Shown: positions 39,579-45,606 of the stretch, piece by piece | How positions within the stretch are numbered: the first letter of the stretch is position 1 | Layout: each line of letters begins with the position of its first letter | Assembly: GCF_001423615.1 (NCBI RefSeq) | Contig: NZ_LMOU01000001.1 | Coordinates: 1,328,882 to 1,392,881 of the forward strand | Reading direction: 5' to 3' | Length of the DNA: 64,000 nucleotides | DNA from: Microbacterium sp. Leaf159 | GTDB lineage: Bacteria; Actinomycetota; Actinomycetes; Actinomycetales; Microbacteriaceae | Translations under genes and position numbers: made by a program | Notes under the pieces: model-generated | Told to the model about the DNA's origin: nothing | Database searches by the model: none | What the model saw: the letters and a program-made list of their open reading frames with translations, nothing else

Positions 39579-41393
39579 TCACACCAGCGTCTGCTGCCAG
39601 GCGGCGTGCAGCTGGGCGAACTTGCCCGTGCCGCTGATCAGCGTCTCGGGGGTGTCGTCCTCGATGATCTCCCCGTGCTCCATCACCAGCACCCGATCGG
39701 CGATCGCGACCGTCGACAGGCGGTGCGCGATGATGATCGCCGTGCGGTCTTTCAGCAGTGTCTGCAGAGCATCCTGGATCAGGCGCTCCGACGGGATGTC
39801 GAGCGACGCCGTGGCCTCGTCGAGGATCAGCACCGCGGGGTCGGCGAGGAAGGCGCGGGCGAACGAGATCAGCTGACGCTGACCCGCCGAGACGCGACCG
39901 CCGCGCTTGTTCACGTCGGTGCCGTAGCCGTCGGGCAGCGACGAGATGAACTCGTCGGCACCCACCGCGCGGGCCGCCGCCCTGATCTCGTCGAGCGAGG
40001 CGTCGGGCTTTCCGAGGGCGATGTTGTCGGCGACCGTGCCGCTGAACAGGTAGGCCTCCTGCGTCACCATGACGATCGCGCGGCGGAGATCCTTCGGATG
40101 CAGGTTGCGCAGGTCGACGCCGTCGAGCGTCACCTTTCCGATCGAGGGGTCGTAGAAACGCGAGATCAGCTTCGCCAGCGTCGACTTGCCCGCGCCGGTG
40201 GTGCCGACGAGGGCGATCGTCTGCCCCGCGGGGATGTCGAGCGAGAAGTTCGGCAGGATCGTCTTCTCGCCGTTGTATCCGAACGTCACCTCGTTGAACT
40301 CGATGTGCCCGCGAGACTCCCAGAGGTCGACCGGCTTCTCGGGGTCCGGAACCGTCGGCACCTCCTCGAGCACACCCGACACCTTCTCCAAGGCCGCGGT
40401 GGCCGACTGGTAGGAGTTCAGGAACATCGCGATCTCCTGCATCGGTGCGAAGAAGTTGCGCACGTACAGCACCGCCGACAGCAGCACACCGACCGTGAGG
40501 GCACCCTCGGACACCCGGATGCCTCCCCACAGCACGACGATGCCGAGGACGAGGGCTGCGACACCCATCAGCCCGGGCTCGAACGTGCCGAACAGCAGCA
40601 TCGAGCGACGGTTGACATCGCGGTACTCCCCCGCGATCTTCTGGAACGCGACGTCGTTGCGCGGCTCCTTGCGGAACGCCTTGACCGCACGGATGCCCGT
40701 CATGGTCTCGACGAACTGCACGATCACCTTCGCGCTGATCACGCGGGACTCGCGGTAGACCAGCTGCGAACGCGAGTAGAACCAGCGCATCAGGAAGAAC
40801 AGCGGAACGCCGCCGATCGCGAGGATGAGTCCCGACTGCCAATCCCACACGCACAGGGCGATGAAGGTGAAGAGCCCGAACAGCACGCCGGAGACGAGCT
40901 CGTTGAGACCGCCGTCGAGGAGCTCCCTGATCGAGTCGAGGTCGCTCGTCTGTCGCGAGATGATGCGCCCCGAGGTGTACGACTCGTGGAACTCCAGGCT
41001 CAGGCGCTGGGTGTGCAGGAAGATCCTCTTGCGCAGGTCCAGCAGCACGGCCTGCGTGAGCTTGGCCGCGATGATCACGTACCAGGCGATCATCGCCGCT
41101 GCGACGGCACCCGCGAGCAGGTAGACGCCGCCGATCATGAAGGTCGGCATCCAGTCGGCGCGCTCGAGCACGGCGGGCAGCGCACGGTCGAGGCCGATGC
41201 TGATCAGGATCGGCCCGGCCACCTGCAGTGCGGTCGAGATCACCAGCACGACCGCGGCGAGCGCGATCCTCGGCTTCAGCGGCTGGACGAGCGAGCCCAG
41301 CAGGTGCAGCGACCGGCGACGGATCGCCCTGCTCTCCTCCTTGGTGTAGCGGGAGCGGTCTTCGTCCTGCGTTCCGGTGATGGCGGAGCTCAT
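39579..41393 (-). CDS. ABC exporter half-transporter, consensus-ATPase subunit
   Basis: 604 residues: six-helix transmembrane domain (about 45-330) and a nucleotide-binding domain with Walker [10 protein letters not shown], Walker [13 protein letters not shown] with the catalytic Glu present, and a signature reading VSAGQ instead of LSGGQ. It pairs with the upstream gene (4-nt overlap) as a heterodimer of the BmrCD/TM287-288 kind, with one good and one degenerate ATP site. Drug or lipid export is the usual role; substrate unknown. Confidence 0.93.
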
Positions 41394-43330
41394 CGCTGCA
41401 CCTCCTTCTCGGTGATGATGTCTTCGTCGGCGGATTCCTCGCGGATCCCGTCGCGGACTACGGCCTCGACCTCGTCGATCTCGTCGTCCTCCTCGCGGAT
41501 GATCGGGATCGCTCCGGTACGCGCGGCTTCCTCCGCCTCGAGGCTCGAGATGACGTGGCGGTAGTGGCGGCTCGTCTTGAGCAGCTCGGAGTGGGTGCCG
41601 ACGGCCGTGACGCGGCCCGCTTCGAGCAGCGCCACGCGGTCGGCGAGGGCCACGGTCGACGGGCGGTGGGCCACGATCATGGCCGTGGTGTCGGCCAGCA
41701 CGTGACGCAGCGCCTCTTCGACGAGCGCCTCGGTGTCGACGTCGAGCGCAGACAGCGGGTCGTCGAGGACGAGGACCTTGGGGTTGGCCGCGACGGCGCG
41801 AGCGAGCGCCAGACGCTGACGCTGACCGCCGGAGAGGCTGAGTCCCTCTTCGCCGATGATCGTCTCGACGCCGTCGGGGAGCGAGTCCACGAATGCCGCC
41901 TGGGCGACGTCGAGAGCTTCGCGCAGCACCCGCTCGGCCTCGTCGCTGTGCACGTCGAGGTCAGCTCGTCCGAGCAGCACGTTCTCACGCACGGTCGCCG
42001 AGAACAGCGTCGCGTCCTCGAAGGCCATGGCGATGTGCTGACGCAGCTCGGCGAGCGGCAGGTCGCGCACGTCGACGCCGTCGAGCGTGACACGGCCGCC
42101 GGTGACGTCGTACAGACGCGTGGGCAGGGTGGTCAGCGTGGTCTTGCCGCTGCCGGTGAGGCCGACGAGCGCCATGGTCTCGCCGGGGCGCAGCACCAGG
42201 TCGATGCCGTCGAGCAGATCGCGCTCGTGCGCTCCCGCATCCTGGTAGCGGAAGTGCGCTCCCTCGAACGCGAGCTCACCACGGGGCTCCGCGATGTGCA
42301 CGGGGTTCTCGGGGTCGGTGATCGAGTTCGTCTCCGAGTAGATGTCGAACACACGGTCGGTCGCCGTGCGCGCGTCGAGCATGAACGAGAACAGGAATCC
42401 GATCGACTCGATCGGCCACCGCAGCACGACCGCCATCGCGAAGAACGCGAACAGCTGCGCCTGGTCGATCTCGCCCTGCGAGATCAGCCAGATGCCCGAC
42501 ATCAGACTCAGACCGAAGGCGATCTGCGGCATCAGGTCGAGCCAGAACCAGATCGACGCGATCGCGCCGGCCTTGCTCATCTCGGTCTCTCGCAGCGTCT
42601 CGGCCTGGCGGCTGAAGCGGCTGAGCGCGTGCTTGCCGCGACCGAACGCCTTGAGCACGCGGATGCCGTGCACGCTCTCCTCGACGCTGGTCGCGAGGTC
42701 GCCGGCCTGGTCCTGGCTGCGACGCGTGAGCGCCCCGTAGCGCTTCTCGAACAGGTAGCCGCGGATCCACAGCGGGATCGCGGTCACGATGAAGATGACG
42801 CCCAGCAGCCAGTGCCAGCGGAACAGCAGCACCGAGCCGATCACGATCGTGAGGATGTTGACCACGAGCAGCACGAGGCCGAACGCGAGCCACCGGCGGA
42901 TGAGGCCGATGTCCTGCATCATTCGGCTCAGCAGCTGACCCGACTGCCAGCGGTCGTGGAACGAGACCGGGAGCGTCTGCAGGCGCGAGTACAGCTCGGT
43001 GCGCATCTTGTACTCGACCTGCGTCGCCGGGTTGAGCACGAACTGACGACGCAACCACACCATCAGAGCCTCACCGAGGGCGAGGCCGAAGACGGCGAGC
43101 GCACCCCAGGCGATGCCTTCGAGCGCACCCGCCTGAACGGGTCCGCGGATGATCTGCTCGAGCACGATCGGGATCATCAGGGCGATGATCGCGGCGACGA
43201 GAGCGCTGGCGGCGCCTCCGGCGAGCCGCCAGATGACCGGCTTGACGAAGGGCTTGAGGCGCCACAGTGCCGCGGGAGTGGAGAGCGTGGAGGACGGTGA
43301 GGCGTTCTGCGATGAAGGCGAGGAAGACAT
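41390..43330 (-). CDS. ABC exporter half-transporter, degenerate-ATPase subunit
   Basis: 646 residues: transmembrane domain (about 35-345), Walker [10 protein letters not shown], canonical signature [14 protein letters not shown], and Walker [13 protein letters not shown], where Asp replaces the catalytic Glu. The complementary defects in the two subunits are the mark of a heterodimeric type IV exporter. An acidic C-terminal tail ([14 protein letters not shown]) is present. No good ribosome site; a leader ORF and attenuator-like hairpins lie upstream. Confidence 0.93.
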
Positions 43331-43375
43331 GTCTCTCAGACGAGTTTCGTATGGGGAAGCGGTTGCTGAAGGGGG

Positions 43376-43411
43376 CGGACGCGCGAACGGACTCTCGGAG
43401 TCCGGCGTCCG
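43376..43411 (-). promoter_or_regulatory. Attenuator-like nested hairpin before the ABC exporter
   Basis: Reading the minus strand, four 7-nt blocks occur in order: CGGACGC (43411-43405), CGGACTC (43404-43398), GAGTCCG (43394-43388), GCGTCCG (43382-43376). Blocks 1-4 and 2-3 pair perfectly; because all share CGGAC/GTCCG, 1-3 and 2-4 can also pair. This allows alternative structures, as in attenuators. It starts 26 nt after the leader ORF stop. No T tract follows. Confidence 0.6.
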
Positions 43412-43437
43412 GTGCAGTCGTGCGTGCGGAAAGGGCT

Positions 43438-43503
43438 CTAGCGGAGCGGGCGCACCGGGGTCGAGCCGAGAGCGGCGATCTGCGCAGCGGCGATCGATGT
43501 CAT
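43438..43503 (-). CDS. Possible 21-residue leader peptide upstream of the ABC exporter
   Basis: A short ORF beginning MTSIAAAQ and ending PVRPLR, TAG stop, with a near-ideal GAGGAGG ribosome site ahead of its ATG and a full promoter (TTGCGG-18-TAGGCT) about 50-80 nt upstream. The exporter gene itself starts 108 nt further on with a poor ribosome site, and the gap holds competing hairpins. This is the layout of ribosome-mediated attenuation, as known for the heterodimeric exporter BmrCD of Bacillus subtilis with its leader BmrB. Expression is unproven. Confidence 0.55.
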
Positions 43504-43556
43504 GGTGTCCTCCTCAGGGGCTCGGCTATGTCGTCCGGTCGGTGCGACAGCCCACC

Positions 43557-43586
43557 AGCCTATTCCTGTGAACCAGCTGACCGCAA
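43557..43586 (-). promoter_or_regulatory. Promoter of the leader-ABC exporter transcript
   Basis: Minus strand -35 TTGCGG (43586-43581), 18-nt spacer, -10 TAGGCT (43562-43557). Transcription would start near 43550, about 47 nt before the leader ATG. Confidence 0.6.
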
Positions 43587-43600
43587 GAGAGATTCCCGAT

Positions 43601-44098
43601 TCAGCGAACTCCTGCTTCGCGCGCCAGCAGACTCGCCTTCACGCCGAGGCCCCAGGCAAACCCGCCGAGCGTGCCGTCGGAGCGCAGCACGCGATGGCAT
43701 GGCACGAAGAGAGCCGGGGCGTTGCGCGCGCAGATCGAGGCCGCGGCCCGCACCGCACGAGGATTTCCGAGGCGTGCCGCGAACGACGTGTAGGTCAGCG
43801 GCTCCCCCGGCTCGATCTCCCGCAACGCCGACCATCCGGCCAGCTGCAGAGGCGTACCGGTCTGCGTCACCCCGACCGCGTCGATCGCCGACAGGTCTCC
43901 CTCGTAGAAGGCGCGGACCGCAGCAGCCGCCTCGGTCTCGCTCTCGCTGACCTCCGCCGGGCGCGCGGCTACCGAGAGACGCCCGACGATGGCTGCCTGG
44001 TCGCTCGTCCACCCGGAGGCGAGCACGCGCTGGCGATCGTCGGCGAGGATCGTGAAGGGGCCGTCGGGGGTGTCGAGGGTCTGGATGAGGGCGATCAT
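43601..44098 (-). CDS. ogt: Methylated-DNA--[protein]-cysteine S-methyltransferase
   Basis: Suicide repair protein that takes the alkyl group from O6-alkylguanine onto a cysteine. 165 residues with the active site FVPCHRVL (C134) and the helix-turn-helix/Arg-finger region [13 protein letters not shown] 44098 with AAGGAG upstream was chosen; the frame is open further back. It overlaps the Ada/AlkA gene by 4 nt. Confidence 0.96.
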
Positions 44099-45606
44099 GG
44101 CTTCTCCTTCGAAACGGCAGTCGCGACGGCGGTCGCGCTCTTGATGGTGGATGCTCGCGTCGGTCGCGGCGGCGCTGCGCGCCAGAGGTGTGCACTGAGG
44201 TAGCTGCGCCACGGAGCGACGCGCTCGGCCCAGGCCACCAACGGCATCGGATCGCCGGGGAGGCCCGACGCCGCAGCCCCCGCGCGCAGCGCGACATCAC
44301 CGGGGAGCAGGATGTCGGGGTTGCCGAGCACGCGCATCCGTACGTAATCGGCCGTCCACGGGCCGATGCCGGGCATCGCGAGGAGCGCCGCCCGCTGCTC
44401 GACCCCATCGTCTCCGACCGTGAGCGGGAGCGACCCCTCGGCGAGGGCGGATGCTGCCCCGACGATCGCGCGGATGCGCGCACCAGGGCCTCGGAGCACC
44501 TCGGCGCCGTGCTCGGCGATCGCGGACATCGTGGGGAACAGCAGCCCGTGCTCGGTCCGCTCCCCCAACGCGTCGGTGAGAGCCGTGAGCGCAGTCCGTG
44601 CGGCGACGACGGTGATCTGCTGGCCGATCATGGCGCGGATCAGCATCTCGTGCGGATCCGCAGCCCCGGGCACACGGATGCCTGGCGTGCGGGCGACGAG
44701 AGGAGCGATCTCGGGATGCGAGCTCAGCGCCTCATCGACAGCGAGCGGGTCGGCGTCGAGATCGAAGATGCGTCGCGCGGTGGAGACGAGCGGGGCGAGG
44801 TCTCCGAGCTGCGTCACACGTGCGCGCAGATGCAGGCGTGCGGAGGGCTCCTGCCGCACCTCGAACCAGGCGGGACCGCCGGCCATCCGCAGATGCCGCG
44901 AGAACGACGTCACCGTCGCCTCTTCGACCCCCGACACCGCTCGCGCGGCCATCCACTGGAACACCCCGGATGCGTCGAGCGGCCCCCGGTACGGCAGGAC
45001 GAGGTCGATCGACCCAGGGGCGGCGGATGCCGGCATCCGCCGCCGAGCCCTGAGCTCACCCGGGGTCAGCCCGAAGACCTCGCGGATCGTGTCGTTGCAC
45101 TGCCGGATGCTCGCGAATCCGGCCGAGAAGGCGACGTCGGAGACGGGCATCTCGGTGCCGACGAGCAGCATCCGCGCGGTGTGAGCACGGTGTGCGCGGG
45201 CGAGAGCGAGCGGACCCGCGCCGAGCTCGGTCGACAGCAGCCGAGTGAGGTGCCGTGTCGAGTATCCGAGGCGCATGGCGAGGCCGGACACCCCCTCGCG
45301 CTCGACGACGCCCGAGGAGATCAGGCGCATCGCCCGAGCAGCGACGTCGCTGCGCAGATCCCACGCGGGTGACCCGGGGGCCGCCTCAGGGAGGCAGCGC
45401 TTGCAGGCGCGGAAGCCCGCTTCGTGGGCGGCAGCGCTGGTCGGGTAGAAGGTGACGTTCTGCGGCTTGGGCGTGCGCGCGGGGCAGCTCGGACGGCAGT
45501 AGATGCCGGTCGAGCGCACCGCGGTCACGAACTGGCCGTCGAAGCGGGTGTCGCGCGCGCTGATGGCGCGATACCGCTCGTCGAAGTCGGTCACGGGGAA
45601 GCTCAT
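44095..45606 (-). CDS. Ada-type regulator fused to AlkA DNA-3-methyladenine glycosylase II
   Basis: 503 residues in three parts. First, an Ada N-terminal zinc domain (residues 1-75) with methyl-accepting site and ligands C37, C41, C68, C71. Then an AraC-type DNA-binding domain (about 85-190). Last, an AlkA domain (about 195-485) with helix-hairpin-helix [16 protein letters not shown] and catalytic D437 (LLPGDVAL). It combines sensing of methyl phosphotriesters, activation of its own operon, and excision of alkylated bases. CAGAGT 6 nt before the ATG suggests a leaderless start. Translationally coupled to ogt. Confidence 0.94.

Follow-up and report, generated by a model that had tools for sequence, protein, structure and literature searches.

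Exporter genes, promoter and transcript start

The window is a stretch of 64,000 nucleotides from the genome of Microbacterium sp. Leaf159. On its minus strand, two adjacent genes for an ABC exporter are preceded by a short leader reading frame and a promoter. Subunit A (41390..43330, 646 aa) has a Walker motif with Asp and the signature LSGGQRQ. The gene of subunit B (39579..41393, 604 aa; signature VSAGQRQ) overlaps that of A by four bases. Each subunit is a full half-transporter with the domain order ABC_membrane+ABC_tran, and both match the solved structures of P-glycoproteins, TM_0288, Sav1866 and BmrC or BmrD (YheI, YheH). Heterodimeric exporters consist of two half-transporters with one degenerate ATP site, and a corresponding asymmetry is expected of them. 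It is present here, as Asp replaces the catalytic Glu after Walker B in subunit A and subunit B has the VSAGQ signature. Judged by these sequence features, the pair is a heterodimeric ABCB-type exporter, the dimer itself being predicted.

A strong match to the exporter is present in 118 of 119 genomes of the genus, and genome G102 contains weak matches only. The exporter of Microbacterium sp. Leaf320 (locus L218) is 99% identical to that of the window. Directly upstream of the promoter (43601-45606, minus strand) are genes for an O6-methylguanine methyltransferase-like and an Ada/AlkA-type protein.

The ribosome site of the exporter, GAGAG, is merely 2 nt away from the ATG (43330-43328, minus strand) and is thus poorly spaced, which confirms its preliminary description as a poor site. 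Many exporter starts of the genus outside the window's clade read AAGGAUC-AUG or GAGGAUC-AUG. These starts are very conserved and have two bases between ribosome site and AUG. At one locus (L104), tandem units like GCGAACCAATCCCACC lie just 5' of the exporter start in a partly masked stretch.

The promoter, as read from the sequence, covers 43557..43586 of the minus strand and comprises the -35 element TTGCGG (43586-43581), an 18-nt spacer and the -10 element TAGGCT (43562-43557). That this promoter is complete, as had been proposed from the window alone, is borne out by its conservation. The motif used for scanning, TTG-N19-23-T[AT]NNNT-N1-4-[AG]GCT, includes the promoter and the first transcribed bases. 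It is found in 108 of 112 usable loci of the genus, in 24 of 30 loci of other genera of the family and in none of 25 loci from the rest of the order; shuffled sequences contain it in 0.2–0.3% of cases (0.3% for comparison with the genus loci). In the genome of the window, the part of the motif formed by the -10 element and the first transcribed bases has one exact copy, located at the window locus. With up to two mismatches there are 22 matches, compared with 52 for a reversed control. The single genomic copy and the family-restricted counts indicate a family-specific element that is tied to one gene.

In many genus loci the promoter spacer is conserved as TTGC-NN-TCAG...CTCAG or TTCACAG, which exceeds the needs of a plain promoter. 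A regulator may bind there. Two loci without a leader (L077 and L118) contain CAGCCCTCCAG...CTGGAGGGCTG, an 11-base inverted repeat spanning the -10 element and the first transcribed bases. An operator is one possible role for this repeat, termination of the upstream gene another.

Near the predicted 5' end of the transcript, the stem-loop SL1 (UGUCG...CGACA, 43529..43549, minus strand) has 95.9% of its cells paired in 29 relatives. It does not covary because changes occur on one side only. The GCUG of the first transcribed bases has a mean pairing probability of 0.89 in 93 loci. The fold of the segment 43560-43489 is no better than those of its shuffles (z +0.84).

The leader reading frame and its conservation

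The leader (43438..43503, minus strand) has 21 codons followed by TAG, with the ribosome site GAGGAGGAC located 5' of its ATG. For the survey of relatives, a leader was defined as an ORF of 15–45 codons with a strong ribosome site within 450 nt before the exporter match. From the genus, 118 loci were fetched and 112 of these were usable. The other genera of the family are represented by the 29 best-matching loci from 79 other genomes and by L161, which is from the same genus as L140; the rest of the order is represented by the 25 best-matching loci. By this rule, a leader is present in 99 of the 112 genus loci, in 26 of the 30 family loci and in 1 of the 25 loci from the rest of the order. The corresponding dinucleotide shuffles contain one in 3.4%, 4.0% and 6.6% of cases.

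One of the 26 family leaders (L145) is likely spurious, as it resembles the final part of the upstream gene. Of the 13 genus loci missed by the rule, L036 does possess a leader, whose ribosome site is weaker. After subtraction of the spurious and one repeated case, the leader is found in about 25 genera. The preliminary description of a 21-codon leader with a strong ribosome site is therefore upheld by the comparison with relatives.

The leader peptides belong to different-looking groups, for example MYQAAIAAKTAFVLR... and MDQIDAPVAPAAASS.... A simple count gives pN/pS values of 1.41, 1.17 and 1.35 for 16, 10 and 31 distinct aligned sequences, respectively. Values of 1.2–1.4 are as expected if the occupancy of the leader by ribosomes counts rather than the peptide, and the sequences give no sign that the peptide sequence is what matters. 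The leaders are rich in Ala, Pro and Thr (20.4, 8.6 and 9.1%, compared with 11.1, 3.2 and 3.8% in the exporter), and Gly is the last residue in 45 of 101. The amino acid make-up of the leader frame is clearly unlike that of the other two frames. Furthermore, indels in the leader alignment are mostly whole codons. Both observations support translation of the leader. Sequence and conservation thus agree with the earlier proposal that a translated leader, kept in relatives, precedes a heterodimeric ABC exporter.

The third bases of leader codons 11–15 (GCUCUCGGCUCGACC, 43459..43473, minus strand) are unchanged in the 19 sequences of the window's clade, compared with 5 invariant codons among 90 comparable fourfold codons of the exporter in a codon alignment. 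An additional helix was considered between the bases preceding the Shine-Dalgarno sequence and codons ~12–14. Its mean energy is -15.2, that of codon shuffles is -14.0, and 83.9% of its cells are paired. The covariation score is above that of all 500 shuffles; two pairs change on both sides, a number also reached by most slid controls. With this modest support, the helix is only a possibility. The complete 236-nt leader does not fold better than its own shuffles (z -0.63).

Comparison of window positions 41000-44500 with Rfam 15 gave no match at the gathering score and one sub-threshold match, which lies elsewhere. The same comparison for 20 loci gave 0 matches. No report of this leader is among the matches listed in the open-licence PMC literature.

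Predicted pairing of the leader with the exporter start

In the window's clade, the Shine-Dalgarno strand of the leader, GAGGAGGACA (43506..43515, minus strand), is predicted to have a second partner. The RNAalifold consensus of 19 species pairs this strand (43515-43506) with UGUCUUCCUC (43329-43320), which extends from the exporter AUG into codon 4. The same consensus pairs CUCUC of leader codons 11–12 (43472-43468) with GAGAG before the exporter AUG (43337-43333). The exporter start region GAGAG-AC-AUG-UCUUCCUC (43320..43337, minus strand) would thereby be sequestered.

The helix of the Shine-Dalgarno strand and the exporter start has ten pairs, and 100% of its cells are paired in all 19 sequences. 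Nine pairs never vary and one is either G-U or G-C, and no two-sided covariation is observed in this helix among the 19 sequences. Both strands have other reasons for conservation, and the species are closely related. All five pairs of the CUCUC/GAGAG helix are kept in 18 of 19 sequences. Complementarity of the Shine-Dalgarno strand is stronger with the exporter start (mean -18.5 kcal/mol) than with segments from elsewhere in the exporter gene (-13.8 kcal/mol). With two variable sites, the first five codons of the exporter are not exceptional, as 17 of 193 five-codon windows have as few.

The calculated cost of opening the exporter ribosome site depends on the position of a leader ribosome, which was assigned a footprint of 15 nt on either side. 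The mean cost in the 19 clade sequences is 11.4 kcal/mol for free mRNA. It is 6.4–6.7 kcal/mol with a ribosome at leader codons 1–4, 10.3 at codon 5 and 10.8–12.3 at later codons. By this calculation, a ribosome at the leader start would free the exporter site in most of the clade; in 3 of the 19 sequences (L004, L011 and L018) the effect is small, with the opening cost lowered by no more than 1 kcal/mol. Random synonymous recoding of the first codons of the exporter reduces the mean occlusion to 8.3. For 12 of the 19 sequences, no more than 7% of the 40 recodings made of each reach the occlusion of the native start, and the native starts of the other 7 are not unusual. In 15 of 19 sequences the second exporter codon is UCU, which encodes 7 of 991 serines further into the gene. 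A/U-rich second codons are a general habit of start regions.

A further set of 80 loci comprised 19 that repeat earlier regions, 18 outside the rule and 43 new ones. For the 24 new loci of the clade type, the mean opening cost is 10.7 in the free state, 6.4 with a ribosome at the leader start and 11.8 with a ribosome at codon 9. The corresponding values for the 19 other new loci are 7.0, 6.0 and 7.2.

Outside the window's clade, irrespective of the position of the ribosome, the opening cost is about 7 for a set of 14 sister sequences and about 5.5 for 11 sampled other genus leaders. For the 67 remaining genus leaders, the complementarity of the Shine-Dalgarno strand is -10.9 with the exporter start versus -13.7 with other exporter sequence. 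Release is seen in some of the sisters with a complementary start (L220, L224 and L247) and hardly in others (L024–L026 and L232). Since the position of the ribosome has no effect in the sisters and other leaders as sets, the switch, if real, is limited to the window's clade and some near sisters. For the wider clade, RNAalifold gave no consensus from a MAFFT alignment of 43 of 44 sequences (one was dropped for masked bases), and the hairpins of this group are therefore described by eye only. Between leader stop and exporter, loci L042–L117 have conserved elements of their own, namely a first hairpin, with GGCAUA in the loop or next to it, and then a second one with the 5' arm GCGUUC(C/U). The stems change and pairing is seemingly kept.

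In the mechanism proposed for the window's clade, the finished mRNA would zip the exporter start region to the Shine-Dalgarno strand of the leader and to leader codons 11–12, and exporter translation would therefore stay low while ribosomes pass the leader quickly. A ribosome held at the leader start, with one of codons 1–4 in the P-site, would cover the Shine-Dalgarno strand and the exporter start would be freed. The holding signal might be, for example, a drug that blocks the first elongation steps. As the blocking would be done mainly by the Shine-Dalgarno strand of the leader, an effect is predicted solely for a ribosome at codons 1–4. Exporter mRNA that is not translated, being C-rich and G-poor past the leader, may be ended by Rho.

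The architecture of the locus and its conservation are solid, and it is very likely that the leader is regulatory in some way. The chances of the specific start-site mechanism in the window's clade are about evenly balanced. Among the explanations considered for this clade, a translational attenuator that responds to occupancy of the leader start site is the best, with both occlusion and release computed, and its probability comes close to one half. A more comprehensive statement is put forward tentatively, with somewhat more doubt than confidence: the family would keep a frozen promoter and a translated leader while the peptide and the downstream RNA evolve fast, and in the window's clade the Shine-Dalgarno sequence of the leader would block the exporter start and act as a sensor of initiation-held ribosomes that is independent of the nascent peptide. 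By analogy with known leaders, a response to translation inhibitors is plausible.

If this is true, an actinobacterial family has a built-in switch of the drug-sensing type on a multidrug-type exporter, which is unlisted in Rfam 15. The attenuator would be testable and would read ribosome occupancy at a start codon, with one Shine-Dalgarno sequence both recruiting the sensor ribosome and blocking the target gene. The fast downstream change behind a fixed promoter and leader would provide a natural series on how attenuators swap mechanisms.

Alternative explanations and known systems

The spacer between leader and exporter (43331..43437, minus strand) is C-rich and G-poor. On average it has 46% C and 25% G, and C is above G in 100 of 100 genus loci; the control, upstream regions of the 25 loci from the rest of the order and thus drawn from other families, has 37% C and 31% G, with C above G in 16 of 25. 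As far as sequence tells, this composition is what the genus shares beyond promoter and leader. It would suit Rho and proves nothing. In an attenuation that depends on Rho, a ribosome on the leader or at its end would shield the C-rich stretch on which Rho loads, and Rho would otherwise terminate transcription before or within the exporter gene. The composition agrees with this explanation, as does the retention of the leader where the exporter ribosome site looks open. In high-GC DNA, however, C-richness says little, and the arms of a hairpin contribute to it. As a replacement for the start-site attenuator, Rho-dependent attenuation is unlikely, with perhaps a realistic chance. It could be a step common to the family.

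The hairpin in question, P (43376..43411, minus strand; -22.2 kcal/mol, z -2.5), is bulged and is formed by four blocks: CGGACGC (43411-43405), CGGACTC (43404-43398), GAGTCCG (43394-43388) and GCGTCCG (43382-43376). The preliminary description let these blocks pair either as 1-4 and 2-3 or as 1-3 and 2-4. The first arrangement stands as a single covarying hairpin, with two-sided changes at 4 of 14 pairs and in 9 cells (2.2 in shuffles). The second one was rejected: its helices cross to a pseudoknot, two-sided changes are lacking throughout, and 15 of 19 sequences cannot form the final pair of helix 2-4. That 89% of its cells can pair results from the repetition of CGGAC/GTCCG in the blocks.

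Hairpin P is central to the transcription attenuation of the BmrB/BmrCD type that had been suggested at first. P would be a terminator, and a ribosome stalled on the leader would allow an antiterminator to form. Leader, hairpin and heterodimeric exporter are indeed in the same order, P covaries, and terminators without a U-tract are said to exist in actinobacteria. The evidence on P itself points the other way. It is followed by CCCCCUUC and not by a U-tract, and a terminator scan found three terminator-like sites, none of them in the region from leader to exporter. In a search for an antiterminator, the last 36 nt of the leader (plus 3) pair with the 5' arm of P no better than shuffled sequences (mean -9.0 and -9.2 kcal/mol); this test is coarse, since in many rows the inner hairpin was picked automatically as the arm, and the pattern detected no P in 3 of 34 rows. 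Moreover, locus L038 has lost the leader ORF by deletion and has retained the promoter and P, which is directly behind the promoter. This locus is a natural leader deletion and useful for testing the hairpin alone. As P has no U-tract behind it, the scan gave no terminator-like site here and the coarse test gave no competitor for the 5' arm of P, the defining parts of a BmrB-type attenuator were not found. The suggestion is not supported and such a mechanism is improbable here.

Alternatively, the leader might be translated only for keeping the 5' end open or stable, without a regulated switch. The lack of conservation of the leader peptide fits this explanation. Inspection of the exporter tree by eye suggests that the 13 leaderless genus loci go back to about six independent losses, which points in the same direction, and the promoter motif is kept in 8 of the 12 usable ones. 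On the other hand, Shine-Dalgarno strand, codons 11–15 and hairpin are conserved in the window's clade and the leader extends over its many genera, which makes a role without regulation very unlikely. An ORF arising by chance in a GC-rich leader can be dismissed: short ORFs are common in GC-rich DNA and the rule finds one in 3–7% of shuffles, but the frequency observed in the genus is far above this background and above the single case among 25 loci in the rest of the order.

The start-site attenuator and the known systems have several features in common. As described in the part of PMC4191407 that deals with bmrB of B. subtilis, that leader ORF is directly before a heterodimeric ABC exporter, bmrCD, as is the leader of the window. 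According to the same part of the report, bmrB contains an intrinsic terminator and alternative antiterminator folds inside the coding region (PMC4191407). In the window, the likeness is the position of a conserved leader before the exporter; a terminator-like site or an antiterminator partner was not found at this leader. An attenuator is also present before the ABC exporter patAB of Streptococcus pneumoniae and is reportedly a transcriptional one, going by the title of the study.

In Bacillota, resistance proteins of the ABC-F type are under the control of the vmlR, cplR and vga(A) leaders. The title of the vmlR study is said to name RNA polymerase pausing and transcription and translation attenuation. 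In these leaders, as far as they are covered in the relevant part of PMC12121999, the stall is likely at the leader start, and the same is proposed for the window's leader. With a stall at the start site, the sequence of the leader peptide need not be conserved. The upstream ORF of whiB7 answers to several classes of translation inhibitors and controls a transcription factor, unlike the leader before the exporter. It is named in passing in PMC12121999 and resembles the window's leader in being an actinobacterial upstream ORF.

The closest similarity is to toiL-topAI of E. coli. In the portion of PMC12121999 concerned with this system, the proposal is that tetracycline or retapamulin holds ribosomes at the leader start codon, that the topAI ribosome site is thereby freed, and that Rho ends the untranslated transcripts. 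On this account, the release of a downstream ribosome site by stalling at a start codon has a tested precedent in toiL (PMC12121999). At both loci the gene is preceded by a short ORF, the mRNA of which can base-pair with the ribosome site of that gene, and in both a ribosome held at the upstream start is expected to free this site, possibly with a Rho step afterwards (toiL-topAI as outlined in PMC12121999). At the exporter locus, the pairing of a leader segment with the downstream ribosome site is a prediction for the window's clade only. Unlike this leader, toiL is paired over its full length and responds to stalls at several codons, at least in the summary given in PMC12121999. The window's leader is predicted to act only through a ribosome at codons 1–4, its own Shine-Dalgarno sequence being the main block. 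Furthermore, the downstream gene is an exporter and the host belongs to the Actinomycetota. By analogy, toiL-topAI is the nearest working model for the window's leader, as far as that portion of PMC12121999 describes it. The best reading is thus a family-wide leader, absent from Rfam, that would work like toiL-topAI in the window's clade.
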